From: a virus
IMG/VR virus record: IMGVR_UViG_3300048838_000104
Coordinates: 1-45,734 of that record
DNA: 45,734 nt
Direction: 5' to 3' (one strand)
Below, piece by piece: positions 1,646 to 30,184 of the stretch. The position numbers and the translations under genes were made by a program. The first letter of the stretch is position 1. Every line of letters starts with the position of its first letter. The notes under the pieces were generated by a model, which worked only from the letters and a program-made list of their open reading frames with translations, was not told the origin of the DNA and searched no databases.

Positions 1646-4600
1646 GCTCGATCTTTATATTCTTGTAAATTTCAATGTGCCGTCCTTCAGAATAAATATG
1701 TTGCCTTTCTCTTTGTCTGCGGATAGCTTTCAAATCCTTTCCAATGTCGCCCAGATTCATGTTGATCTTTTCGCTCACATGGGTATCTTTTATCGTGCGC
1801 TGCCGATCCATTTCCCGGTGCGAAATCATATACCTGACAACATCACGTCTGCTTTCGCTTCTATCCACAACCTCTCGTGTACTTGTCATCGCCCTGCTTG
1901 CAAGGGAATTTTGCAGCGTGTTATTTGTAACCATTTCCTTAATAACCATTTCCTTACGCTCCCTCGGACTTACATACCCAGGTAAAATATAGTCACGTAT
2001 CTTTTCCGCTCCTGTTTTCTTTTTCGCCGGTTCCAGCTTACCCGTGTTGATCTGATCCACAATCTCAGGCAATACGTTCTTATACCTTTGTACCGCCTGC
2101 CTGGAAAATACCGCCATGCCTTCGCCACCTTCAGCATACACACTCTCCCCACCAACATCCGCCAGGTGAATATCTTTGCCCGACTCATGTGAACCTCCTT
2201 TCAGCTCCCTGTACCCTCCTTTTCTCATCTCGGTCTTAGTCAACTGTGCCGCCTTGGTTTTCGCTGCTATGAAGCTTCCCCACATTAGAGCAATTGCCGC
2301 AATCGCCAGAAGCGGGATACCCCCCAGGGATTCCCAAATCTTTGCCGTTGCCGTAATTAAACTGCTGGCCTGGGTAATTGAATCCAATTGCTGCTGTTGT
2401 TTTACGGCTGATTCCTTGCGTTTCAGGGCTTCCTTTTCCAGTTGTTCTTCCTGTTTAAATGCTTTCTGAGCGCCCTCGATATTTGAAGCATATCCAGCAT
2501 TGCGATTCTCATACTCCTGATCCAATGCCTGCCTGGCGTTTTCAACCCTCTCTTTTGCTTTGTCCACCTCCAACTGTGCTGCTTCGACCTGTTTCTGCAT
2601 CAATTCATTAATCTGCGATACGGCAAATTGAATGCTATCCCTTACAGCCGCTTTTTGCTCATCCTTCAGATCAAAACCCAACATGTCGAACAAATCAATC
2701 TTTTTTGCCGGGGGTTTATAATCGTTCAACTCACGTGTCACCCCATCCAGGGCTGCTTTTATTGTTGCTCTCTGAATATCCGTCATCTCCATCAATTCCA
2801 TTACCTTTTCAAGCCGTTTCTTCTCAGCCTGAAGCGTAAACAGATACTTTTCCTCCTCGGTTCTTTTTACGGAATTAAATACCGCCTCATCAAACTTCTG
2901 CTGCTCATCAAAAGCTTCCAGCATCTTATCTGATTTCTCCTTCGCCGTTTTTCTATCCAGCTCCTCAATCTGCTTTGCCCGCCATGCTTCGGCTGCGAAC
3001 AAATCCCGTCCGGCTGAAATTCTTTTGCTGTACGCCAATTCAATCGTGGCCAGTTCCTTTTCGTAACCGTCCTCCATGTCGTCAATGCGTCGTTCCTGGG
3101 CTTCATACTGTTTCTTTATCTCCTCCTGCCTGTACTTTTCGTTGATCTTTGCTATGTCCTCATTGTACCTCTCAAACAATGGCCCCGTATCAATCATTGC
3201 ATCCTTCCATAACCTTTCTTTCTCATCAAATGCAATCTTCAGCCCTGCCAGGTCTTTTTCCTGACCGTCCTTCATCGCATCCAACTTTAGTGATTCTGTC
3301 TTTTTTACCTTATCCTGGGCTTCTTTTTCGTACTTGTCATAAATCATTTGCTTTTTCACCCTGTACCATTCATCTACTGCCCGTGTGTCCTCCTGGGCTT
3401 CCACAAATTCATCGTACTTATCCTGATAGCTCAATTCCAGTTCCTTCAATTCCTTCTGCAACCCTTCACTCATTACGCTGATTCTGAGCTTCGCCTTTTT
3501 ATCCAAATCCTTTTCATCAATCTTTTTAGGACCTTCCGGCTCCGGTGTTTCCAGCTCAAACCCTGCCGCTTTTGAATAAAATGCACGGATCCTTTCCAGC
3601 GCCTCATCCTGTCCCTTTTTGCTTGCAATCAATGCGAAAATATCAATATCCAGATCCTCCCATGCAATCCCGTATGCGCTCATCTTTTTATCGAACTGTC
3701 CGACAATATCCAGCGTCTTACCAAATTCCTTCTTCAGTTCTTCCGTTTTCAGTTGTGAGGGATCCACAGCCTTAAACAAATCCATCGTGTCGACCGTGTC
3801 TTGAACCTTCATCACTTCATCCAAAAAGTCCTGAAACGCTCCCGCTGCTCCGGCTGCCATTTTTTCATTACCAGCCTCCCTTAATGATTCTGCTACCTTG
3901 TCCGTTGCTTCCTTCTCCTTAGTTAGCTGATCCAAGGTCACAGCCTCCATCTCCCGCACCATCTCCTTCAACGCGATATTCTTCCTCAGTTCAATATTAG
4001 CCGCCTTCTGGGCTGCCTCTATCCTATCAAGTTTGTCACCTTCCTTTATCAGATAAGGCAAATAACTTGCATACTCAGAATTGATAGTCTTAATCAATTC
4101 AGACCTCTCTTTTGTTCCCTCGCCTGCCATTTTCAGCCTTGCAAACAGGACGTTCAAGCTTGCGGACTCCTCAACTATCTGAGTCGTTACTCCCTTTGTG
4201 CTTTGCTTTGCTTCATCTGACCTCTTTTTGAACATCAAAAACGCAGCCCCGGCCGTTACAACTAAAGATAAAATCATTGAAATGGGTCCAAATGACGCCT
4301 TCATTGCAAGGTTAAACGCCTGCTGTGCTGCTGTTGCCCTCATTACTGCAACCGTCTTAATATGCAGCGCCAGGGTTTGTAATGTCATTGTTCGGATACC
4401 CATTTTCATATCAACAATAAGCATCCGCATTGCAATTCTATACGTTGCCCATGCCACCACGGCCAGCGTAATACCCTTTGTTATATTTACGATAACCGTT
4501 ATATTCCTGGTCATCCACTGAAACATACCCGTCAACCCGTCCACAATTACGCGAATAACACCGTTTGCCCCGGACATCGTTAACATCAATCCCTCCCAGG

Positions 4601-6155
4601 CTGATTTCATTATCGTCACGCTCCCGGCCAGATTGTCCATCATCGTATCGCTCATCTTTTTTGCTGTTCCCTCTGCCTGCTGATACTTTGCGTCAAGTTG
4701 GTCGATCTTATCTATGTTCTCAGTCAACACCAGCAACCCGGCAAATGCCCTCTTGCCCATGATCTGCATAGCTTCACTCATACTCAATCCACTTTCTGCC
4801 AGTCGTCTCAAACTCACATTAAACGGCTCCCCTTCTACTGCTATCCGTGCAAATACGTTCTTTAATGTCGTTCCTGCCATACTCCCATGTATCCCTGCAT
4901 CAGCCAAAGCCGACATCATAGCCGTTGTATATTCCAATGACGTTCCCGTTATCTTTGAGACAGGGGCTACATGCTTCATTGCTTCCCCAAACCTTTCCAG
5001 GTTCAAAGCTGAAGAAGTAAACGAGCTTGCCATTACGTCAACCACCCTGGTCGTTTCTGAAGCATCTAACCCAAACCCTCTCAATGTCGCCCCTGCTGTT
5101 TCTGCACTCTTTGACAAATCCTCCATAGTTGCCTGAGAGAGCATGATAGTCGCTTCAGTGGCATTCAATATTTCTTTTGTCGAAAATCCTAACTTTCCAA
5201 ACTCCACCTGCAGCCCACCTACCTCCGTGGCCGTGCGTGCCGTCACCGCTCCTAATCTCTGTGCATCATCTCGCAACATCTTGAATTGCTCATCAGTTGC
5301 CAGGGTGATAGCTCCCACTTTACTCATCTGTTGCTCAAAACCTACCAGAATCTTTGACGTGCTGGAAAACAACCTCATCGCTGCTGCAAAACCGATATAC
5401 ATACCAGCCATCATTTTTAGGTTCCGCCACACGCCCATCATCGCTGAACTTTGCCCAGTCTGCGCCTGGTTTAAATTCTGTATCTCAGCCCTGGTTCCGG
5501 CAATATCCTGTTTCATCTGCTTGTAAGCCGCACTATTGCGCTTTCCTCCCTGCTCCAATGCCTTCAAGGATGCCTGTTGTTTTTTCAGCGTTACCAGAAG
5601 CCCCTCAGTTGCCAGCTTGTAATTCCCTACCTGCAGATTATAAACACCCGTTGCCTTCTGCATCCGGTTCATCTGCTCGTATATCTGCCTGCTTTGACGC
5701 TCCAACTTCTGACCCTCCACCGTGGCATAACGCTGTTGATCGGTCATTCCAGAAAGCCTAATTTTATTCATCGCATAAGTAGCAGACAACCTATCATAGC
5801 TTCCCGGGGCTGATGCTGCATACTTCGCCTCAAGCTTGTTTATCGTTTGCTTGGCCTGAAGTTCGTTCTTTACCCCTGCAATACTCTTTGCCGTTTCCGT
5901 TTGTGCAAATTTTAACTTTTCATTCTCCTTTCTCAATAGTTCCGCGTCCTTGGATGCATCCTTTATGACATCCTGTCCTTGTGAACTTCCCGGACTTGCT
6001 CCCTTTACCTTTACATCTAATTTACCAGCATTCTCCTTTACCGAAGCGGCAAGTCCCTTTAATCTACGATCAAACTCCTCCATATCAGCGATAGCCCGCT
6101 TTATGGAAGAATCATATTTGAATAAATCGCTTAATTTGATCGGGTTACTTGCCAT
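1638..6155 (-). CDS. Tail tape measure protein
   Basis: This 1505-residue protein sets tail length and occupies the tail lumen. It begins with a coiled-coil region (about 1-240). A TP901-type tape-measure core follows at roughly 260-500, with alternating Ala/Gly/Ser-rich helices after a QQMSKVGAIT-like start. Hydrophobic segments follow at about 530-640, then long charged coiled coils (about 870-1240). A further membrane-like segment near 1310 contains LLAIAAIALMWG. The length would fit a tail of roughly 200 nm or more by the usual rule of about 0.15 nm per residue. The start overlaps the end of the upstream gene by 11 bases, and the stop overlaps the next tail gene. The family is secure. Confidence 0.95.
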   Translation of the reverse strand: MASNPIKLSDLFKYDSSIKRAIADMEEFDRRLKGLAASVKENAGKLDVKVKGASPGSSQGQDVIKDASKDAELLRKENEKLKFAQTETAKSIAGVKNELQAKQTINKLEAKYAASAPGSYDRLSATYAMNKIRLSGMTDQQRYATVEGQKLERQSRQIYEQMNRMQKATGVYNLQVGNYKLATEGLLVTLKKQQASLKALEQGGKRNSAAYKQMKQDIAGTRAEIQNLNQAQTGQSSAMMGVWRNLKMMAGMYIGFAAAMRLFSSTSKILVGFEQQMSKVGAITLATDEQFKMLRDDAQRLGAVTARTATEVGGLQVEFGKLGFSTKEILNATEATIMLSQATMEDLSKSAETAGATLRGFGLDASETTRVVDVMASSFTSSALNLERFGEAMKHVAPVSKITGTSLEYTTAMMSALADAGIHGSMAGTTLKNVFARIAVEGEPFNVSLRRLAESGLSMSEAMQIMGKRAFAGLLVLTENIDKIDQLDAKYQQAEGTAKKMSDTMMDNLAGSVTIMKSAWEGLMLTMSGANGVIRVIVDGLTGMFQWMTRNITVIVNITKGITLAVVAWATYRIAMRMLIVDMKMGIRTMTLQTLALHIKTVAVMRATAAQQAFNLAMKASFGPISMILSLVVTAGAAFLMFKKRSDEAKQSTKGVTTQIVEESASLNVLFARLKMAGEGTKERSELIKTINSEYASYLPYLIKEGDKLDRIEAAQKAANIELRKNIALKEMVREMEAVTLDQLTKEKEATDKVAESLREAGNEKMAAGAAGAFQDFLDEVMKVQDTVDTMDLFKAVDPSQLKTEELKKEFGKTLDIVGQFDKKMSAYGIAWEDLDIDIFALIASKKGQDEALERIRAFYSKAAGFELETPEPEGPKKIDEKDLDKKAKLRISVMSEGLQKELKELELSYQDKYDEFVEAQEDTRAVDEWYRVKKQMIYDKYEKEAQDKVKKTESLKLDAMKDGQEKDLAGLKIAFDEKERLWKDAMIDTGPLFERYNEDIAKINEKYRQEEIKKQYEAQERRIDDMEDGYEKELATIELAYSKRISAGRDLFAAEAWRAKQIEELDRKTAKEKSDKMLEAFDEQQKFDEAVFNSVKRTEEEKYLFTLQAEKKRLEKVMELMEMTDIQRATIKAALDGVTRELNDYKPPAKKIDLFDMLGFDLKDEQKAAVRDSIQFAVSQINELMQKQVEAAQLEVDKAKERVENARQALDQEYENRNAGYASNIEGAQKAFKQEEQLEKEALKRKESAVKQQQQLDSITQASSLITATAKIWESLGGIPLLAIAAIALMWGSFIAAKTKAAQLTKTEMRKGGYRELKGGSHESGKDIHLADVGGESVYAEGGEGMAVFSRQAVQRYKNVLPEIVDQINTGKLEPAKKKTGAEKIRDYILPGYVSPRERKEMVIKEMVTNNTLQNSLASRAMTSTREVVDRSESRRDVVRYMISHREMDRQRTIKDTHVSEKINMNLGDIGKDLKAIRRQRERQHIYSEGRHIEIYKNIKIEHV

Positions 6156-9503: not shown

Positions 9504-10898
9504 CTACGGCTTTTCCCATGCCGTTGCTCCTGCATTCATTTCAATGATGCTCGTGGTTGCCACAAGTGCATTGCCATTAGCATCATAAACAGGAAGTGCC
9601 AAATCAAACGTGTCAGTTGCTGCAACGTCACCCGCTACAATTACAAACGTCCAGACTTTACCCGTTGCGTCTGCTGTAACTGAAGTCAGCGTACAGGTCG
9701 TTGAACCCGTTGCCGGACTTGTAAGATATGCTGCAACATCACCCGTCAACAAAGTACCTGCTGTATCCGAGCAAAGCGCCTCTGAGAAGGTTACAACGGC
9801 TGCTGTCTTAGCTGCAGAAACAACTGTCGAAACTGCAGGGGCTGTTACATCCGCATCAACTTCAGAACGGTTAATACTGAACTTAATGTACGGACTTGGC
9901 AAGGTAGATACTGAGCTATTGTAAGCTGTGATGAACGCAATGTCCACCGCGAACCCGTAATGCTCTTTGTATGCTCTGGTAAACGACGCCGTCGAAGCAC
10001 CTCCAATAGCATTGTAGTCACCAACACCAGGGTAAAAATACGTACCAACCGGAATTCCAAGTAACGGCAAAGTGGAAATATCCCACTCGTGGCCAGTAGC
10101 CGAAATCCTTTTGTTGATCGCTTCACGCTCGAAACGGAACAACATTCCTAAGCTGCCAGGCTGAATTGCAAACCCGGTAGCATATCTTCCGGTGGCATTC
10201 GGTACCCTGCTTGAAAAATGCAGCACCTTATCCATGTACTGCAATTGCTTGTTCTCTGCATTCATAATTCCGCTCTGGGCAAGCTTGTTAATGACGCTCA
10301 TCACGCCTTCATTCCCCAGAACATCGACCTGGCCAAAAAAGTCATTTGCAAACAGCAAAGGGCCTAAATCACCGATTATGTCCTCCCTCTGTGCATAAGT
10401 GGCCTTCACCGTATTACCAAGGTTGGAATAAAGCAGAAGGTTATTGAATACCTGGGAACGTGCCGTGTTAATGGCAGCAACTCCAACAGCATCCAACGTG
10501 GCCCCTAACTTGTACAGGTACTTCAGGAACTTGCGTTCAAAGTCCCTCTGCATGTCTATTTCATTGTTGTCATACATCGACGGCACAATGGTGAATCCCC
10601 AACTGTATGTTGCGAAAGAAATCGTAACCATCTGGGAAGTGTTCTCGTCATCGGCAATCGTGGCCGACCTGGTATTACCGATCGTTACACCAGCATCGTA
10701 ATCAATTACTGGAATTTTCAGCGTATTGTCAATACTGACCATCGCTTTCTGCTCCAGCTCGGGAGTAATCATTGACCCTGCGGCCTTGGATTGTGTCATA
10801 AACAAATCCAATGCGCCATACTGAGACGGGCGTAACTCGAACTTATCCAGTCCGGCCTTTGCTCTCAACTCAAGTAGTCTCGTGTTAATTAAGCTCAT
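9504..10898 (-). CDS. Major capsid protein with C-terminal Ig-like domain
   Basis: A 464-residue protein that forms the icosahedral shell. Residues 1-346 read like an HK97-type capsid protein of Bacteroidota phages: a short N-terminal arm, then a mixed alpha/beta body rich in Tyr/Phe. Residues about 347-464 change character to Thr/Ala/Val-rich beta strands with the pattern VTAPAV...VVTFSEAL...YDANGN, typical of bacterial Ig-like (SwmB-type) domains. The gene follows the scaffold-like gene and is followed by a stem-loop, as expected for a highly expressed product. The identification rests on position, length and composition. The Ig-like domain probably projects from the capsid surface. Confidence 0.85.
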   Translation of the reverse strand: MSLINTRLLELRAKAGLDKFELRPSQYGALDLFMTQSKAAGSMITPELEQKAMVSIDNTLKIPVIDYDAGVTIGNTRSATIADDENTSQMVTISFATYSWGFTIVPSMYDNNEIDMQRDFERKFLKYLYKLGATLDAVGVAAINTARSQVFNNLLLYSNLGNTVKATYAQREDIIGDLGPLLFANDFFGQVDVLGNEGVMSVINKLAQSGIMNAENKQLQYMDKVLHFSSRVPNATGRYATGFAIQPGSLGMLFRFEREAINKRISATGHEWDISTLPLLGIPVGTYFYPGVGDYNAIGGASTASFTRAYKEHYGFAVDIAFITAYNSSVSTLPSPYIKFSINRSEVDADVTAPAVSTVVSAAKTAAVVTFSEALCSDTAGTLLTGDVAAYLTSPATGSTTCTLTSVTADATGKVWTFVIVAGDVAATDTFDLALPVYDANGNALVATTSIIEMNAGATAWEKP

Positions 10899-10945
10899 TT
10901 TGTTTAGTTGTTTTAGGTGAATTTATCGAGCTGCCCTTAACTCAG

Positions 10946-11884
10946 TTAACGAATTGGTAATTTGTCCACGCCGAGTTTGTCTCTTATCTCAGCGTGTTTA
11001 TCTGCAAAAGCGGAATCCTGTTTTAGCATTCCCTGCCTCAGCAAATGTTCTTCGATCAGTTTGTCTGCTTCGGTTTTGGTCCTGGCAGAACTTATGTCCA
11101 ACACCGGTGCGCCTGGTTCATCAGGTACGCGTCCCGTTCCGGTTTGTTTTACAGGCGTTGCCAGAATATCTTTTAAATCCTTACTCAACAATTCGCCCGC
11201 CGTATAAGGATGTAACCCATTCTCAGGATTCCTCAATATCTCATTCTTTTCATCCAGGAACACCAAGCGTTTGCCTCCGGCCTCATCAACCATCGAAGTC
11301 TTGTACTTCGTCAGTAGGGTTTCCTTTTTGGCCTGGATGAACGTGTTTCTCACTTCAACGGGTAATACCTTCTCATCCTTAAACTTCAGCTTTTGGATCT
11401 CACGGTCAAACTCCGTGTCAACCTTCAATCGGCTGATCCTGGTGTCGGCCTCTTGGTACTTCTTCTCCCATTCCTTTTCCTTTTCCTTGATCTGTCCCCT
11501 TAACTGTTCCACCAGCTTTTCAGATTCAGTTACTTTAGCCTTCAGGCTTTCATCGCCCGTGCCGTCTTTGATCTTTTTCTCCAAAGCTGATTTTTCAGCC
11601 TTCAAAGCTTCGATCTGTGATGTTAACACCGTACCGCCTTCGGCCTTCGCCTTCAGGTCTGTTAGGGTTTCTTTCAGAAAGTCATAGGTTTTCTTGCCTT
11701 GCGGCTTTTCCAAACCCAACACACTCTTAATGTCCTCGTCATATTGCCCATGCAATTTGCCGATCCTTTCGTTCATTACGGCCTGTTCGTCATTGGTTGA
11801 CAGAACCACCAGCGCACTAATTTGCTCAGGCGTTAATGTCGCCAGTGCGCTATTTGCTTTAATCAAATCTGCTGTCAGTGCCAT
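10946..11884 (-). CDS. Capsid scaffolding-like protein
   Basis: A 312-residue, highly charged helical protein immediately before the major capsid gene. Its central part (about 75-150) is a strong coiled coil rich in Lys and Glu. The N-terminus (ALTADLIKANSALATLTPEQISALVVLS) is a short helical domain. Length, charge, coiled coil and position are those of tailed-phage scaffolding proteins. I see no protease Ser/His signature, so an external or host protease may process it, or none may be needed. Confidence 0.8.
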   Translation of the reverse strand: MALTADLIKANSALATLTPEQISALVVLSTNDEQAVMNERIGKLHGQYDEDIKSVLGLEKPQGKKTYDFLKETLTDLKAKAEGGTVLTSQIEALKAEKSALEKKIKDGTGDESLKAKVTESEKLVEQLRGQIKEKEKEWEKKYQEADTRISRLKVDTEFDREIQKLKFKDEKVLPVEVRNTFIQAKKETLLTKYKTSMVDEAGGKRLVFLDEKNEILRNPENGLHPYTAGELLSKDLKDILATPVKQTGTGRVPDEPGAPVLDISSARTKTEADKLIEEHLLRQGMLKQDSAFADKHAEIRDKLGVDKLPIR

Positions 11885-13984: not shown

Positions 13985-14629
13985 TTATGCAGGTACTAAG
14001 TCATACAAAGCATCGTAATCCAGAGGGGTTACGGCATAACTCAATGCAGCCCACCCAGTCGGGAACATAAACGAAATCTTATTCATGTCCGGGTTTTCAT
14101 AGCCTCCAACCTGAAGGTCAGAAACAAACACTGAATGAATAGGAATAGGATAGAATTTTGTCGGGCTTGCAAGGCTATCAACCTTTCCCCACACCTTTCC
14201 ATTCTCGTCAATCATGTAAACGCCGATCAACTTTTCACACATCAACGCCTGCATTGTGGTAATGGCATCCTGGCGTGTGTTGTGAATTTCGGCCGTAAAC
14301 TTGCTGGGACTTGATCCCAGGATTTTCTCGATACCACCCGGGGTTGCATTCCCTCCACCATAAACCCGTGCATCAGGAACTTCATGTCCTGGATTGGCAA
14401 GGATAGGGGAGCATACAACTTTGGTGGCTCCGGTTGCGGCAATAAGCGGCGTCCATGTTGCGATAACATTAGGGTTTGCGCTCGCAATCGTCAATTCATT
14501 CTTGACGCCTGCTGATGCGTATAACCTCTGGAAGAGTAATTTCTGAATCTGGCCTACGCGAAATTCGCAGGCATTAATGGTAATTGCTGTCAGTGCGGCA
14601 TTCGCAGGACAGGGGCAAACTAAGTTCAT
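13985..14629 (-). CDS. Putative structural protein expressed from its own promoter
   Basis: A 214-residue protein that is the first gene after the promoter at 14694-14724. It has low charge, is rich in Ala/Thr/Pro/Gly, and its C-terminal part (VFVSDLQVGGYENPDMNKISFMF) is beta-rich, resembling a tube or decoration protein. The position between large terminase and portal is odd for a tail-tube protein, so a decoration protein is equally possible. No family is recognised. Confidence 0.6.
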   Translation of the reverse strand: MNLVCPCPANAALTAITINACEFRVGQIQKLLFQRLYASAGVKNELTIASANPNVIATWTPLIAATGATKVVCSPILANPGHEVPDARVYGGGNATPGGIEKILGSSPSKFTAEIHNTRQDAITTMQALMCEKLIGVYMIDENGKVWGKVDSLASPTKFYPIPIHSVFVSDLQVGGYENPDMNKISFMFPTGWAALSYAVTPLDYDALYDLVPA

Positions 14630-14693
14630 TGCTTTAGATTTTTAGGTGTAACTGTGATTGAACAGCTTACCCATAGGCTGGAAGTAATGGCAA

Positions 14694-14724
14694 CAAATGT
14701 AAGGCAAAATATTCGATCTGTCAA
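14694..14724 (-). promoter_or_regulatory. Bacteroidota-type promoter P14.7 (structural genes)
   Basis: On the minus strand, TACATTTG (14694-14701) matches the TAnnTTTG -7 box. TTG (14722-14724, inside TTGACA) lies exactly 20 bases upstream. It sits in the 114-bp gap after the terminase gene, and the first gene starts about 60 bases downstream. Both boxes and spacing match the known phylum consensus. It should fire the virion structural genes separately from terminase. Confidence 0.75.
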
Positions 14725-14743
14725 TACCTTGACTGAACTTTTT

Positions 14744-16177
14744 TTAATTTACCGTGCGAACACCCCGCCGCTTCCCCTGGTTCTTTTCAACTATCCCGGT
14801 TAAACAATCCGCCGCATCTTTAAACTTATTCGCTGCATAAATCCTTTTGAACGTCCTGATATGCCTGGAAAACTCCGGCCATCTCGTCTGCCAATCCAGC
14901 GGCATTAACACCGTTTGCTTGACGTTTGCAGCATTAGTCAGTATCCGGCTTTCTTTATTCATCGACTGATTAAACCACCTGACCACCGTTCCCGGGGCTT
15001 TTGTCTGTATTACCCTGGCAAATCCCCTGCCCCCATTATTTGATTCAATATCAGCCTCACGGGTCAATGTCCTGGCCAACATCATAGGCATCAGCTTTTC
15101 AGTCTCCTCCATCGCTGCCTGAGTGTAAAGTACATCAGTTACATACGCCTTTCCATCTTTTGACCAATCATAACAAATCGAACACAGGTAATCTTCTCCC
15201 TGGTCTGCCGTATCTGTATAGTTGCCCTTCTTTATAATGTTGTTTGGGATCGTTTCATAAGTCTGCAAATCGCCATACAACAATCCTTCTGAGCTTTCCG
15301 GATTTCCCTGCTGCATACATTCAAATCGAATGGGGTCCAGATTATACTGTTTCTTCAGCTTTTCGTAACTGTGCCTTTCAGGCCACAATGGCTCGTCAAT
15401 ATTTCTCTGATCAAACTCCGTTTTCTCACTCTCCATAATTGCAGCCCAGTTTACCATAACCCAATCATCCGGGTTGCAATCTGCATATTCCGCCATGCAG
15501 GAAATTACGTTAACCTTTTCCGTTAACATTACCCTCCCAATAATATCATCTTCATGCCACCGTGTCATTACCATTAATTCTACCGTATCATTATGGTACC
15601 GGTTCCTGACTACATCCGTGTACCAATTCCATGCCGCTTCACGTGTTACAGGGCTGTTTGCCTCCATTGCATCCTTGTACAAGTCATCCATGATCATCAC
15701 ATCCACCGGGTCACCCGTTAGCTGCCCTCCACGGCCTACCGTTTTCAAACTCCCTTGACGGTTTATGATTTCAAACTTTGCACTTGTGCGAATATAAGTC
15801 GTGCGCTTGGCTTTCACCTCCTCAGAACGTGGAAGCCTTGCATCAGGGAAAATCTGAAGGTAGGGCTGATCTGTCATTATCCTTTGTACCGAACGATTGA
15901 ACTGCTGTGCGAATGCACCAGCATATGAAGCAATGACTATTCTCTTATCAGGGTCACGTCCCAGGATCCAGCTTGGTAATATCCTGCTGCTTCCTTCGCT
16001 CTTGCCGTTTTGGGGTGGGATTGTAACTATCAGCTTGCGGATGTTTCCCTTTGCGAACTCCTGCAGAAGAAAGTAATACCACACATGAAAATCCTTGAAA
16101 ATATTATCTGGCTTAATCCACCTGACATAATAGGCCAATTCCCTGCGTGCCCTCTCTATGTATGCCGGGTGCATCAT
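14744..16177 (-). CDS. terL: Terminase large subunit
   Basis: A 477-residue DNA-packaging motor. A Walker A-like loop is at residues 53-62 (TIPPQNGKSE), and a Walker B with catalytic acidic pair at about 159-165 (VMIMDD). The C-terminal half carries the RNase H-like nuclease region, with acidic residues near CYDWSKDGKAYVTD. It overlaps the small subunit gene by 4 bases. The packaging type (cos or headful) cannot be told from the sequence here. Confidence 0.93.
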   Translation of the reverse strand: MMHPAYIERARRELAYYVRWIKPDNIFKDFHVWYYFLLQEFAKGNIRKLIVTIPPQNGKSEGSSRILPSWILGRDPDKRIVIASYAGAFAQQFNRSVQRIMTDQPYLQIFPDARLPRSEEVKAKRTTYIRTSAKFEIINRQGSLKTVGRGGQLTGDPVDVMIMDDLYKDAMEANSPVTREAAWNWYTDVVRNRYHNDTVELMVMTRWHEDDIIGRVMLTEKVNVISCMAEYADCNPDDWVMVNWAAIMESEKTEFDQRNIDEPLWPERHSYEKLKKQYNLDPIRFECMQQGNPESSEGLLYGDLQTYETIPNNIIKKGNYTDTADQGEDYLCSICYDWSKDGKAYVTDVLYTQAAMEETEKLMPMMLARTLTREADIESNNGGRGFARVIQTKAPGTVVRWFNQSMNKESRILTNAANVKQTVLMPLDWQTRWPEFSRHIRTFKRIYAANKFKDAADCLTGIVEKNQGKRRGVRTVN

Positions 16178-19805: not shown

Positions 19806-19813
19806 TCTTTTTG

Positions 19814-19886
19814 TAGCGGGGGAGGGATTCGAACCCTCGACCTTTAGATTATGAGTCTAACGAGCTGGCCTCTGCTCTACCCCACA
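19814..19886 (-). tRNA. tRNA with CAT anticodon (Met or Ile2)
   Basis: A full cloverleaf can be drawn: a 4-bp D stem GAGC/GCTC, a 5-bp anticodon stem TTAGA/TCTAA around the loop CTCATAA, and a 5-bp T stem GAGGG/CCCTC around TTCGAAT. The acceptor stem has six pairs plus a mismatched first pair (T-T), and the discriminator is A. CCA is not encoded. The anticodon stem lacks the three G-C pairs of initiator tRNAs. It is therefore elongator Met or a lysidine-modified Ile2; which one cannot be decided by eye. Confidence 0.85.
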
Positions 19887-24594: not shown

Positions 24595-24665
24595 CAGAAA
24601 CTTGGCGATATCTACAGTTAGCAACAAGCACTACCGAACTACTAATCCGATAGTGCATTGCTTTT
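24595..24665 (-). other. attC-like imperfect palindrome A4
   Basis: On the minus strand, GCACTATCGGA and TTCGGTAGTGC pair (11 bp with two G-T pairs) around a 7-base loop. Outer AGCAA/TTGCT arms follow, ending in GTTGCTAAC. It directly follows the stop codon of the 24669 gene. The layout (nested short arms right after a stop, ending in a GTT...AAC core) is like an integron attC site. It fills the gap between the 24246 and 24669 genes. Confidence 0.5.
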
Positions 24666-24668
24666 AAT

Positions 24669-25283
24669 TTAGTTTTTATCATAATATTCAAAAACCTTAT
24701 CTAATTGTTTAGGGTCTTTTAAAATAGTATAATAGCACTCACCAAAACTATCTTCGATATAGTGCAAATCTCTTTGTTCTGCTTCTTCTTTTGAAATTGG
24801 AACACGAACTACATCTATGTAAAATGTTTTTGGTTTAAATGGAAACTTTACAAATTGGCTACTTCTTATAAACTCAAAGTCTTTATCGTCAACATAAACA
24901 CCTCCAGTAAATGTATCGTATTCTTCTACGCCTTTCCATACAATAGCATCTAAATAATGTGCTTTGCTCTCAATCCCATCTTTAAATAAAGCACTACATC
25001 TGTTATTTTGGTAGGTTACATTTCCTCCACAGGCTTCACTTACATCAAACCATTCACTTTCGTGTCCAGTTACATCACAAATTGGTTCTTGTAGTAATAA
25101 TTTCTTTACTGCTTTTGAAATTGCAGTTGCTGTATATGGTGCTGAACCACCACTTTGTCCACTCTTGCCAAATTTTTCACATAAGGCTAAAATTTCCTTT
25201 GCAAAAGGTGTTACAATTGCATCTGGTACTGTTGCTGCAAGAATATCTAATTCTCGCTTTGCATGTTTGTATGTATTTGTCAT
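24669..25283 (-). CDS. Cassette-type hypothetical protein
   Basis: 204 residues, AT-rich, with several cysteines (ICDVTGHES, SEACGG, NRCSAL, GECYY). The C-terminal half is rich in aromatic and acidic residues. It is bounded on both sides by attC-like palindromes (A3 and A4) and has no phage-type overlaps. No family is recognised. The context suggests an imported accessory gene. Confidence 0.65.
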   Translation of the reverse strand: MTNTYKHAKRELDILAATVPDAIVTPFAKEILALCEKFGKSGQSGGSAPYTATAISKAVKKLLLQEPICDVTGHESEWFDVSEACGGNVTYQNNRCSALFKDGIESKAHYLDAIVWKGVEEYDTFTGGVYVDDKDFEFIRSSQFVKFPFKPKTFYIDVVRVPISKEEAEQRDLHYIEDSFGECYYTILKDPKQLDKVFEYYDKN

Positions 25284-25344
25284 ATTTTATATGCGGTTCG
25301 CCTTTACACCACAAGGTTCTAAATTTATACTTTTAATCCGTGCC

Positions 25345-25482
25345 AGTTGCTAACAAAGGCTATAAAACATAGCGGTTGTAGTGAGTAATTCAACGGTAGT
25401 GGCTCGTATGTAACTTTGTGCGGTTCGAAATGTTGTCGCTTCGTACTCCGCTACGAGTTCATAGCCTCGACCGTTACCGCCC
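25345..25482 (-). other. attC-like imperfect palindrome A3
   Basis: Begins 3 bases after the GNAT stop codon. On the minus strand: GTAAC (R''-like, 25473-25477), AGGCTAT (25461-25467), about 95 bases, ATAGCCT (25357-25363), then GTTAGC (R'-like, 25349-25354). Paired arms, order and a length of about 135 bases match the R''-L''-L'-R' plan of integron attC sites. The 3' core GTTAGCA departs from GTTRRRY at one position. This explains the whole gap between 25284 and 25484. Confidence 0.55.
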
Positions 25483-25484
25483 AT

Positions 25485-25904
25485 TTAAAGAAGCGGCTTA
25501 GTCATCCATACAAATCCTTTTTGGTTATGGTCTTTTAAGTCAGAATATCCACGCCTTTGATACCATTTGTACATCCAGCTTTCTTTTTTGACCCATAAAC
25601 AAGAAGTCTTTGCATTTAAGTCTTTGCCAATTTGTTCCCGTATTTCCTGCATTTTTTTACCAATTCCTTTATTTCGGTAATTTGGATTTACAAGTAAGTT
25701 TGACAAATAAACTGTTGTGTTGTCATCAATATACCAGTACACACTGGCTTCCGCTACACCATCCGCTTTAATTGTCAATGTTTCGATTCCTGAATCCTGA
25801 GAGAAACAAAAACGGGCGGTAACACCGCATAGCACCAATAAAGGGTACATCGGTATTTGCAGCATTGTAGCCCGTTCAAATTGTGTTGTATATTGATAGT
25901 TCAT
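25485..25904 (-). CDS. GNAT-family acetyltransferase
   Basis: 139 residues from the ATG at 25902-25904. The acetyl-CoA loop is RNKGIG, following VYLSNLLVNPNY, the classical motif A (strand, then R-x-x-G-x-G). The C-terminal WMYKWYQRRGYSDL is motif B, typical of small-molecule or peptide N-acetyltransferases. The substrate is unknown. GNATs are among the commonest integron-cassette genes, and this one lies between two attC-like sites. Confidence 0.85.
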   Translation of the reverse strand: MNYQYTTQFERATMLQIPMYPLLVLCGVTARFCFSQDSGIETLTIKADGVAEASVYWYIDDNTTVYLSNLLVNPNYRNKGIGKKMQEIREQIGKDLNAKTSCLWVKKESWMYKWYQRRGYSDLKDHNQKGFVWMTKPLL

Positions 25905-25950
25905 CTCTCGCAATCCGCTTCGATTTCATACCGCCAGCCATTATGCCCCA
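25905..25950 (-). other. Half attC-like site A2
   Basis: On the minus strand this reads AAATGGGGCATAATGGC and then TATGAAATCGAAGCGGA, which aligns base by base with the start of A3 (AAATGGGCGGTAACGG ... TATGAACTCGTAGCGGA). Its second half is missing: the GNAT start follows at once. GGGGCATAAT also complements the GTTATGCCCC at A1. Confidence 0.45.
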
Positions 25951-25951
25951 T

Positions 25952-26140
25952 TTAAGAACGCAAAGCCCGAACTACCTTGCATTTTACTATTCTGTATTTT
26001 TCATTTTCAAATTCAGTTCTTTTAAGCCTTGAAAAATGATAGTACAAGGCATCTTCTTTTAATTCTGTTTTCGCACAGATAGCGGAAACACTCCCGAATA
26101 TTTCAGGAGTGTTTGTTTCTTTGTTTAAAAACCAGAACAT
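25952..26140 (-). CDS. Small HTH-like hypothetical protein
   Basis: 62 residues from the ATG at 26138-26140, just after the stop of the upstream gene (TAAAATG). SVSAICAKTELKEDALYYHFSRLKRTEF looks like two helices separated by a turn, as in small DNA-binding phage proteins. Second gene of the P26.5 unit. Confidence 0.6.
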   Translation of the reverse strand: MFWFLNKETNTPEIFGSVSAICAKTELKEDALYYHFSRLKRTEFENEKYRIVKCKVVRALRS

Positions 26141-26141
26141 T

Positions 26142-26474
26142 TTACAATTCGTCAAATAATAATTCAGCCTGTTCTTTGCAGTGAGAATAAATTTCTAAAT
26201 CTTCACTATCTTCAGCAAAATCTGCGTTGTCTTCTGCGTAATTATAAATTGTACCTGATTCGCTTTCGTATTGTAGCGCATTTGAGTTTTCAGCAACATC
26301 AGCAGCAGAATCTTTATCAACTATCTGAAAAATTGCACCTGTGTTGTCAACTGCGTGTTCATCATCAAGTTGAACGAAAAATAATTCATTTGCTTGTTTA
26401 AAGTTTGTGTTGTTTACTTTTAAACTTGCTTTTTCTCTTAATTGAGTACCTGAAATTTCATAAATTCTTTTCAT
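26142..26474 (-). CDS. Very acidic small protein, first gene of P26.5
   Basis: 110 residues, of which about 25 are Asp or Glu and only about 8 are Lys or Arg. Acidic clusters are spread through the C-terminal half (YAEDNADFAEDSEDLE). It is the first gene after a near-perfect promoter and a terminator. Acidity and position fit a DNA-mimic or anti-defence protein, but no family is recognised and the function is inferred only weakly. Confidence 0.65.
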   Translation of the reverse strand: MKRIYEISGTQLREKASLKVNNTNFKQANELFFVQLDDEHAVDNTGAIFQIVDKDSAADVAENSNALQYESESGTIYNYAEDNADFAEDSEDLEIYSHCKEQAELLFDEL

Positions 26475-26519
26475 TGTCGTAAATTTTATTTGTGAAACAT
26501 TTGATTAATTATTACACTA

Positions 26520-26551
26520 CAAATATACAACGTTATTTTGTAATTACCAAA
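26520..26551 (-). promoter_or_regulatory. Bacteroidota-type promoter P26.5
   Basis: On the minus strand, TTTG (26548-26551), exactly 20 bases, then TATATTTG (26520-26527). Both boxes match the phylum consensus. The gene start is about 45 bases downstream, and a terminator lies just upstream, so this is an isolated transcription unit. Confidence 0.8.
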
Positions 26552-26612
26552 CATTTCTACAATTATTTTCATTTATTTTGTAATTTAATTTTATTTTAAA
26601 TAAGAACGCAAA

Positions 26613-26636
26613 GAAAAAACGGGGCATAACAGCCCC
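26613..26636 (-). terminator. Rho-independent terminator
   Basis: On the minus strand, GGGGC-TGTTAT-GCCCC followed by G and six T residues. It lies 45 bases after the stop of the coiled-coil gene. The same bases contain GTTATGCC, the 3' end of attC-like site A1, so the two interpretations overlap. Confidence 0.75.
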
Positions 26637-26690
26637 TATATTCAACTCCGCTACGCTCCGCAGCATATAGCTGCATCACGTCATAGCGCT
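26621..26690 (-). other. attC-like palindrome A1
   Basis: On the minus strand, CAGCTATAT and ATATAGGGGCTG arms surround a GC-rich spacer carrying CGTAGCGGAGT, and the site ends in GTTATGCCCC. The same 11-mer CGTAGCGGAGT (plus-strand 26645-26655) occurs in A3 (25445-25455). The site overlaps the last codons of the coiled-coil gene, as if the block was joined there. Confidence 0.45.
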
Positions 26691-28829: not shown

Positions 28830-30184
28830 TTTGGAAGTATTATTTGATTATTAAATGTTTCTTTTTTAAAGGTAATATTTGAGTTCAAATTAATGTTTAG
28901 CTTTTCAAAAAGGCTAATCGCTTTTTCTGTCTTCAATTCAATTGCATCAATTACCCTTTGTTGTCCATCGCTTAATACTCGATCTGCATATACATCCCTT
29001 TTTTGTCCAAATCTCCAAAATCTTCTAATTGCCTGATACCACTGTTCATAACTCCACGTTGGAAAATATGTAGTATGGTTGCAATGCTGCCAGTTTAACC
29101 CAAACGCAGTTATTTTTGGTTTTGTAATAAGCTTTTTTATTTCACCTTTTGCAAAGGCAACCAATATGTCCTCCTTTTTATCTAAATTCATTGATCCGCA
29201 TATTTGATATGCCGACTTGTCAAGTTCTTGGAGTAATTCCCCTTCGTAGTTAAAATTACACCAATATACGGATGTTTCATGTTTAGACGCAATCTCAACA
29301 GCACGTTCACATCTATTATGAATAGTCATTTGCTGCTCTTGCCTTACCTCGGTCATTGTTTTAGCTATTTTTCCAAACATTAATATTTGCCCATCAACAA
29401 CCCAATTTTTATCATTCTTTACATAATGATCATTAATATATAAATCTTTCAGGATAAACATTTCATCTGAGAATCCAAAGTCTGAAGGCTTGCGCATTGA
29501 AATAGACCAACTCGAAACCCATTTAAAAAAATCATTCTCAGCATGCGGCTTTAAATACCATTTACATGCAATTTCTTGCGGCCTGATATTATTTTCGTTG
29601 TTTGCGAAAAACTTTTGCAACATTTCCATATAAGGCATATATCCTAACGCTTCTGAACTTGTTCCTAATTCAATAAAATCGTTTGGTGAGGGCGTTGCAG
29701 TTGCCAGAAAACGATACTTCATTTTTTTTAAAAATGTAGTAATATGACTTTTTATTGCACCATCAAAGTTCTTTAAAATACTTGACTCATCCAGAATTAC
29801 ACAATCAAAGTCACTTGAATCAAACTTATCAAGCCTTTCATAATTACATAACACAATATCCGTTGAGTATTTGCCATCTTTTGAATATGCCACTGAATCA
29901 ATCCCAAACTTCTCCGCTTCTTTAACAAATTGAAATGCAACTGCCAATGGCGTAACAATCAGCACCGGCTTATTAGTGTGCCTCGCATAATTTTGCGCTA
30001 TTACTAATTCTATAATTGTTTTCCCTGTTCCAGTATCCAGAAACAATGCACACCTGCCTTTCTTTATCGCATATTCTGCAACATATTTTTGAAAGTCAAA
30101 TAGTTGATCATGGATAAAATTAGGAATAATTCCATAATCAGCAGATGTATGTTTCTTCCTTTCTAAAAATTCCTTGTAATCCAT
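28823..30184 (-). CDS. SNF2/DEAD-type helicase
   Basis: 453 residues. Motif I GTGKT at 52-56, motif II DESS at 132-135, motif III ATATPSP at about 161-167, and a motif VI-like QAIRRFWRFGQKR near residue 395, all typical of SNF2-family ATPases. It is shorter than chromatin remodellers, as phage forms are. First gene of P30.2 and paired with the methyltransferase. It probably remodels or unwinds DNA in replication or recombination. Confidence 0.93.
   Translation of the reverse strand: MDYKEFLERKKHTSADYGIIPNFIHDQLFDFQKYVAEYAIKKGRCALFLDTGTGKTIIELVIAQNYARHTNKPVLIVTPLAVAFQFVKEAEKFGIDSVAYSKDGKYSTDIVLCNYERLDKFDSSDFDCVILDESSILKNFDGAIKSHITTFLKKMKYRFLATATPSPNDFIELGTSSEALGYMPYMEMLQKFFANNENNIRPQEIACKWYLKPHAENDFFKWVSSWSISMRKPSDFGFSDEMFILKDLYINDHYVKNDKNWVVDGQILMFGKIAKTMTEVRQEQQMTIHNRCERAVEIASKHETSVYWCNFNYEGELLQELDKSAYQICGSMNLDKKEDILVAFAKGEIKKLITKPKITAFGLNWQHCNHTTYFPTWSYEQWYQAIRRFWRFGQKRDVYADRVLSDGQQRVIDAIELKTEKAISLFEKLNINLNSNITFKKETFNNQIILPKW

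Follow-up and report, generated by a model that had tools for sequence, protein, structure and literature searches.

A probable integron-type cassette array in a phage genome, with genes antisense to their attC sites

Integrons are familiar from bacteria, where cassettes are read towards their attC sites: in ordinary integrons each gene reads towards its own attC, an orientation that is usual rather than strictly defining. How, then, is one to understand a block of genes and attC-like palindromes that lies between two genes of a phage? The window analysed here is a complete IMG/VR virus record of 45,734 bases, belonging to a phage of Bacteroidota-type bacteria. Its terminase is nearest to those of Bacteroides fragilis phages (47-49%), its portal and structural genes match PHROGs families, and an Rfam scan yields a sole match:

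19813-19886, minus strand: tRNA-Met (CAT) gene of the phage genome

The initial annotation saw in the block integron-type cassettes held by a phage without its own integrase, possibly captured by the host's integron. The two halves of this proposal have fared differently. The first is supported by a covariance-model match to one of the palindromes (A3), by box-to-box homology of the tad3 unit and by the lack of any PF00589 match; the second, as it was put, is not. We read the block as a three-cassette integron-type array, without an integrase of its own, in a phage genome (probability about 0.8). Several observations weigh against this reading: only one of the three attC in the window is intact; the window has no recombinase, and PF00589 is in 1 of 16 related records; the shared tad3 unit has different attC in the window and in L082; blocks of attC are common to phages by themselves; tad3 stands without attC in some contigs; and a model of IntI-type arrays misses A3.

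The block and its attC sites

The block (24.6-26.7 kb) is indeed AT-rich, as had been noted, with a GC content of 0.34-0.39 against about 0.40-0.49 across most of the window (28-31 kb is low too), and the genes surrounding it are all on the minus strand. Read on the plus strand, it resolves into three units, each with mutually complementary, unit-specific ends and with a hairpin region after it (A3, then A2, then A1):

24617-25354, plus strand: tad3 unit, from GTTAGCAACAAGCAC (24617) to GTGCCAGTTGCTAAC (25354)
24617-24631, plus strand: outer R' box GTTAGCAACAAGCAC, left edge of the array (G/TT cut, written G|TT) and, in attC polarity, the tad3 cassette's 5' end; complementary to 25340-25354 (I8)
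24621-24661, minus strand: A4, terminator-like hairpin in the 3' untranslated end of tad3, by its sequence; kept in the tad3 unit of phage L082
24669-25283, minus strand: tad3 gene, 204 aa, Pfam PF25185; antisense to its attC
25348-25479, plus strand: attC alpha (A3), intact, matched over its full length by model R3; the bottom strand forms a better fold than shuffled sequence does (z -2.6). Parts: R'' TGCTAAC (25348-25354), L'' GGCTAT.., L' ATAGCC, R' GTTACCG (25473-25479)
25473-25823, plus strand: GNAT unit, from GTTACCGCCCATTT (25473) to AAACGGGCGGTAAC (25823)
25473-25486, plus strand: R' box GTTACCGCCCATTT, where the GNAT cassette begins when read in attC polarity; complementary to 25810-25823 (I9)
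25485-25901, minus strand: GNAT acetyltransferase gene, Pfam PF13508/PF00583; start putative
25817-25946, plus strand: degenerate attC beta (A2); its R'' reads CGGTAAC (25817-25823) and its R' has mutated to ATTATGC
25940-26630, plus strand: 110-aa/67-aa unit (gamma cassette), from ATTATGCCCCATTT (25940) to AAACGGGGCATAAC (26630)
25952-26155, minus strand: small ORF of the gamma cassette, 67 aa; an ORF alone, with no Pfam match
26142-26474, minus strand: gene for a 110-aa protein, gamma cassette; an 88% identical relative, with no evident attC, is in phage contig L086/L087
26617-26630, plus strand: gamma-cassette R'' end AAACGGGGCATAAC, complementary in sequence to 25941-25953 (I12)
26624-26684, plus strand: attC gamma (A1), short and degenerate; right end approximate, abutting the stop of the 372-aa phage gene
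26681-27799, minus strand: 372-aa phage gene, right flank of the block, its stop adjoining A1

The paired ends are GTTAGCAAC../..GTTGCTAAC for the first unit, GTTACCGCCC../..GGGCGGTAAC for the second and (A)TTATGCCCC../..GGGGCATAAC for the third. Cassettes of real bacterial integron arrays have unit-specific complementary ends likewise; since such complementarity, taken as a stand-alone statistic, is common by chance in a 45-kb sequence and not specific, it serves as a consistency check and not as proof. The outer R' box can be placed by other means: homology to phage L082 stops there (24614), and the same end also closes a different, C5-methylase-like, gene in phage L098.

Are the hairpins attC? 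Model R3, a covariance model built from 22 attC of other phages with the window held out, matches A3 end to end on the plus strand (43.2 bits, E 3.3e-7), its only significant match in 45.7 kb (the next in the window has E 1.5). Model R2, built from 40 attC of arrays adjoining IntI genes, matches neither A3 nor the positive control P12002L; because a phage with a reported active attC is missed as well, the miss is uninformative about A3, and it marks the phage attC type as divergent. R3 in turn recognises bacterial integron arrays outside its training set, which is why the phage sites are held to be homologous to attC; all 15 of these matches fall on the strand in which the array reads, an independent check on the polarity call. 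In all, 123 of 395 genomes of the phylum contain R3 matches. Many two-sided changes support pairing of the arms, in sites chosen partly for pairing.

The complete order R''-L''-VTS-L'-R', with C-GTT[AG] and AAC-[AC] flanks, is found in A3 alone. The AGGCTAT/ATAGCCT arms and GTAAC/GTTAGC boxes ascribed to A3 are there, and it begins directly past the GNAT stop, as described. It had been taken for the site of the GNAT gene, an assignment that does not hold: the attC polarity of A3 is that of the plus strand, antisense to the genes, and A3 is therefore the site of the tad3 cassette. The likeness of A2 to A3 is real for part of A3 (48 nt, 73%; repeat D2); A2 also resembles an attC that is intact in L044, a related phage (12383-12510; 79% identity), and it folds no better than shuffles (z +1.1). 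A1 does share an 11-mer, CGTAGCGGAGT, with A3 and folds better than shuffles (z -3.4), yet has no attC-model match; neither A1 nor A2 is matched by R3 up to E 10. A4, put forward as a further attC-type palindrome, has no attC-model match and is ruled out as attC; the outer R box (24617-24625) lies directly outside this hairpin, which is conserved in L082. The window contains one intact attC and two degenerate remnants having cassette-specific R boxes. The initial annotation had named the lack of an attC-model hit as counting against its reading: A3 has such a hit, with R3, and A1, A2 and A4 have none.

As for cargo, one of two units that had been left without a function encodes Tad3 (PF25185, E 4.8e-21; 75.2 bits against a curated cut-off of 27), a predicted inhibitor of type I Thoeris that is 87% identical to its L082 counterpart. 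The other is the gamma cassette with its 110-aa protein. (This protein looks strongly acidic by eye; a DNA-mimic type of counter-defence would be a guess.) The GNAT gene is what it had been called, its start being putative because the ORF extends, with its N-terminal part, across R'' and into attC beta; no relatives of it were found in viral contigs. By family, the cargo of phage cassettes comprises Tad3, GNAT, methylases, YopX and DUF4406, that is, accessory phage genes, several of them plausibly for counter-defence. A first scan of bacterial genomes for Tad3 came up empty and an alignment-based scan found one MAG (L088); in a set of 395 genomes of the phylum, tad3 was found in 1; none was found in plasmids. 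The tad3 gene stands without attC in L083, L085 and L088. (A side note on L083, a 324-kb viral contig: its tad3, at 5001-5615, has no attC boxes, and an unrelated attC cassette lies 4.5 kb off, at 10075-10167.)

Gene polarity in phages and in bacteria

All sets were scored by one rule, AAC[AC]...CGTT[AG] with paired arms and the unit's own 5' end complementary to R'', the longest ORF being the one scored; the phage set combined phages of the window's family with 57 viral contigs retrieved independently by attC arm motif. Among non-redundant phage cassettes 80 of 85 are antisense to attC and 5 are sense; in bacterial arrays of homologous attC, also non-redundant, 178 of 194 are sense and 16 antisense (Fisher p about 7e-47). 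Shuffle controls gave 2 + 0 in the phage sets, against 32 + 62 in the real sequences, and 3 + 1 in the bacterial sets. The bacterial set takes in arrays found with the phage-trained model, so that one and the same attC type goes with sense genes in bacteria but with antisense ones in phages.

The cassette genes of the window are likewise antisense to attC and do not read towards it. That polarity does not merely follow the direction of the phage is indicated by L041, where the array is opposite to the flanking genes and the cassettes are antisense to attC nonetheless. The strongest site found in P12002L (30005-30059) is antisense to its gene. (Another side note: gp24 of P12002L (L184), at 14499-15197, lies on the other strand from the genes around it and, having an attC of its own, is one of the rare sense cassettes.) In antisense phage cassettes the R box (TAAC) often supplies the stop codon, TAA, and attC contains the first ATG in 17 of 37 of them; the N-terminus would in consequence be encoded by an attC arm. 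On the sequences compared here, the cassette pool of these phages is generally one of inverted polarity. We found no report of it in the open-access literature, an incomplete body of work without most subscription journals and preprints; within what was searched, systematic inversion of genes relative to attC appears to be new.

Movement of units and candidate enzymes

The tad3 unit is common to the window and L082 (85% nucleotide identity over 742 bases), in a contig that is otherwise dissimilar. The homology breaks at both R boxes, as befits a modular unit, and the flanking hairpins are dissimilar there. Since the unit is common from box to box and its attC differs between the two phages, the gene did not simply bring its attC along. 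In L095 the 5' end of the tad3 unit recurs together with part of A3, a third and partial copy of the cassette, and in L098 a methylase-like gene has ends as in the tad3 unit and a clean attC. (The 16-mer TGTTAGCAACTGGCAC has 17 matches in viral contigs, about the chance expectation; its context fits only in L082 (=L104), L095 and L098, and the other matches are read as chance.) L044 has another cassette (DUF4406) at the corresponding place, which is downstream of its helicase-methylase pair, and an attC homologous to attC beta lies beside it. Chains of several cassettes are found in L017, L019, L022, L023, L041 and other relatives, and attC blocks of ~100-150 bp, 75-94% identical and with an end no more than a few nt from the R' box, are common to phages beside different genes (e.g., L203, L214, L217). 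The dissimilar hairpins of window and L082, together with hairpin blocks that are shared by themselves, are the grounds for saying that genes and attC seem to shuffle partly independently, something that simple cassette transfer does not explain.

The search for empty sites gave no clean one for the window's block (L002 and L003, 84-87% identical in the methylase, hold other genes there) and only distant relatives for L082. In L082 itself, joining the flanks of a two-cassette array (4057-5190) creates an almost perfect palindrome, TTTATACGAACG|TTCGTTATAAA, which might serve as a target for insertion.

What might move these cassettes? A CALIN is a cluster of at least two recognisable attC without an integrase; a complete integron has intI and attI, and the window is not one. 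The window has no integron integrase near its array: a PF00589 search of the 45.7-kb record found no tyrosine recombinase, in agreement with what had been annotated, and movement of its cassettes would therefore need an enzyme supplied in trans. PF00589 is found in 1 of 16 related records, many of which are fragments. In L022 a XerA-like recombinase (10550-11467, plus strand; TIGR02249 94 bits, below XerD at 119) is divergent from, and adjoins, an array of at least six attC cassettes, which makes L022 a candidate phage-borne integron. In twelve bacterial genomes with phage-type arrays no IntI scores above the curated cut-off; several of them have a divergent recombinase of 272-380 aa at the head of the array, scoring 185-211 bits with TIGR02249 (cut-off 265) and higher than with XerD in each case:

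L277 5539-6381; L301 1556-2374; L302 1586-2620; L303 1252-2373; L304 2325-3455, plus strand: array-head tyrosine recombinases
L305 4151-5215; L306 11559-12701; L310 16769-17896, minus strand: array-head tyrosine recombinases

These are possibly an unrecognised group of integron integrases, which profile-based finders would overlook: a lead rather than proof.

Explanations, and comparison with known systems

Cassette boundaries, attC homology and polarity are read directly from nucleotide comparison. Recombination, the source of the enzyme and the activity of Tad3 are what we infer from them, and the following scheme can be offered. Along the plus strand a cassette begins with its R' box, continues with an antisense gene and the R'' box, and closes with the attC hairpin; the array runs from tad3, with its intact attC, through GNAT to the 110-aa/67-aa genes, the last two with degenerate attC. 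An integron-type tyrosine recombinase, acting at the G|TT of R' on the folded bottom strand of attC, would add and remove cassettes; it would be provided in trans by the host, by a co-infecting element or, rarely, by the phage. Being inverted relative to attC, the genes are read on the phage coding strand, the same way as the rest of the phage's genes. Expression of the cargo would take place during infection, and Tad3, to judge by its family, would block Thoeris signalling. A wider proposal, advanced tentatively and at a little under even odds, is that Bacteroidota phages have an integron cassette pool of their own, apart from the bacterial one, with systematically inverted genes: the recombining attC strand would be the phage coding strand, leader and start codon would often lie within attC, and phages would trade cassettes with one another via integrases in trans, occasionally phage-borne, as a swappable store of counter-defence genes.

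Several other explanations have to be weighed. Could the units spread solely by homologous recombination between repeated attC blocks in mixed infections, with no integrase now active in phages? The 98 attC pairs that can be aligned between phage loci, the many records without a recombinase (most of them) and the degenerate attC of the window speak for it; the breakpoints of tad3 at both boxes, between dissimilar flanking hairpins, speak against it, and we consider it unlikely.

Capture from the host's chromosomal integron, as first suggested, draws on the fact that genomes of the phylum commonly have arrays of homologous attC and that some phage-bacterium attC pairs are 68-77% identical over 65-130 nt. 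It is nevertheless disfavoured, because gene polarity is opposite, because no cassette protein is common to the 124 phage and 236 bacterial cassettes in the sample of arrays compared, and because tad3 was found in 1 of 395 genomes of the phylum; host capture is thus unlikely, and a phage-to-phage cassette pool fits better.

A separate mobile unit with terminal inverted repeats (R' ... R''), moved by a recombinase of non-integron type while hairpins and genes shuffle as separate blocks, would account for the exact box-to-box sharing of tad3 with exclusion of its hairpin, for hairpin blocks that are common to phages by themselves and end within a few nt of R', and for the XerA-like enzyme that adjoins the L022 array. 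Against it, ordinary IntI arrays have the same attC type and the same end-complementarity, and one attC of the antisense class is in a phage for which PMC9892861 reports an IntI1-active attC; we put this explanation, too, among the improbable ones.

That the attC are chance look-alikes, intergenic regulatory hairpins (terminators, RBS hairpins) beside ordinary accessory genes, is very hard to credit: chance end-complementarity in the window, failure of the model to recognise A2 and A1, and the terminator-like A4 would suit it, but the held-out R3 match has exact ends on A3, R3 matches bacterial arrays in the right polarity, homology breaks at the boxes, and chained cassettes recur in many phages (32 + 62 against 2 + 0 in shuffles).

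If the phage-pool proposal is true, phages run their own version of the integron, for counter-defence genes such as Tad3 and methylases, and a testable question arises: what strand of the DNA does phage replication expose, and what enzyme is at work then? There is also a practical side, in that annotation programs relying on polarity or on a strict IntI profile may miss inverted arrays.

How does the array compare with known systems? The presence of attC in phages is already on record: CALIN have been described in P12002L, PH101 and TJE1, and five of six attC sites from virulent phages, P12002L_attC2 among them, recombine with IntI1 (Qi et al. 2023; PMC9892861). The window's array is like these in having attC-bounded cassettes without an integrase, in virulent phages in their case, and methylases figure among the cargo of phage cassettes in both data sets; several sites there are IntI1-active. 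It differs in polarity: TJE1 and PH101 are given as having typical same-direction arrays, P12002L as having "divergent directions", and no systematic inversion is described in the available part of that report. Sedentary chromosomal integrons (IntI, attI and attC arrays) share the R''-L''-L'-R' sites, the G|TT boundaries and the complementary cassette ends, whereas their genes are sense to attC and phage genes antisense, and the window is without an integrase. With the Tad3 family (PF25185) the match is a full one; what is different here is that the gene is carried by a mobile cassette, at least in the window and in L082, a partial copy being found in L095.
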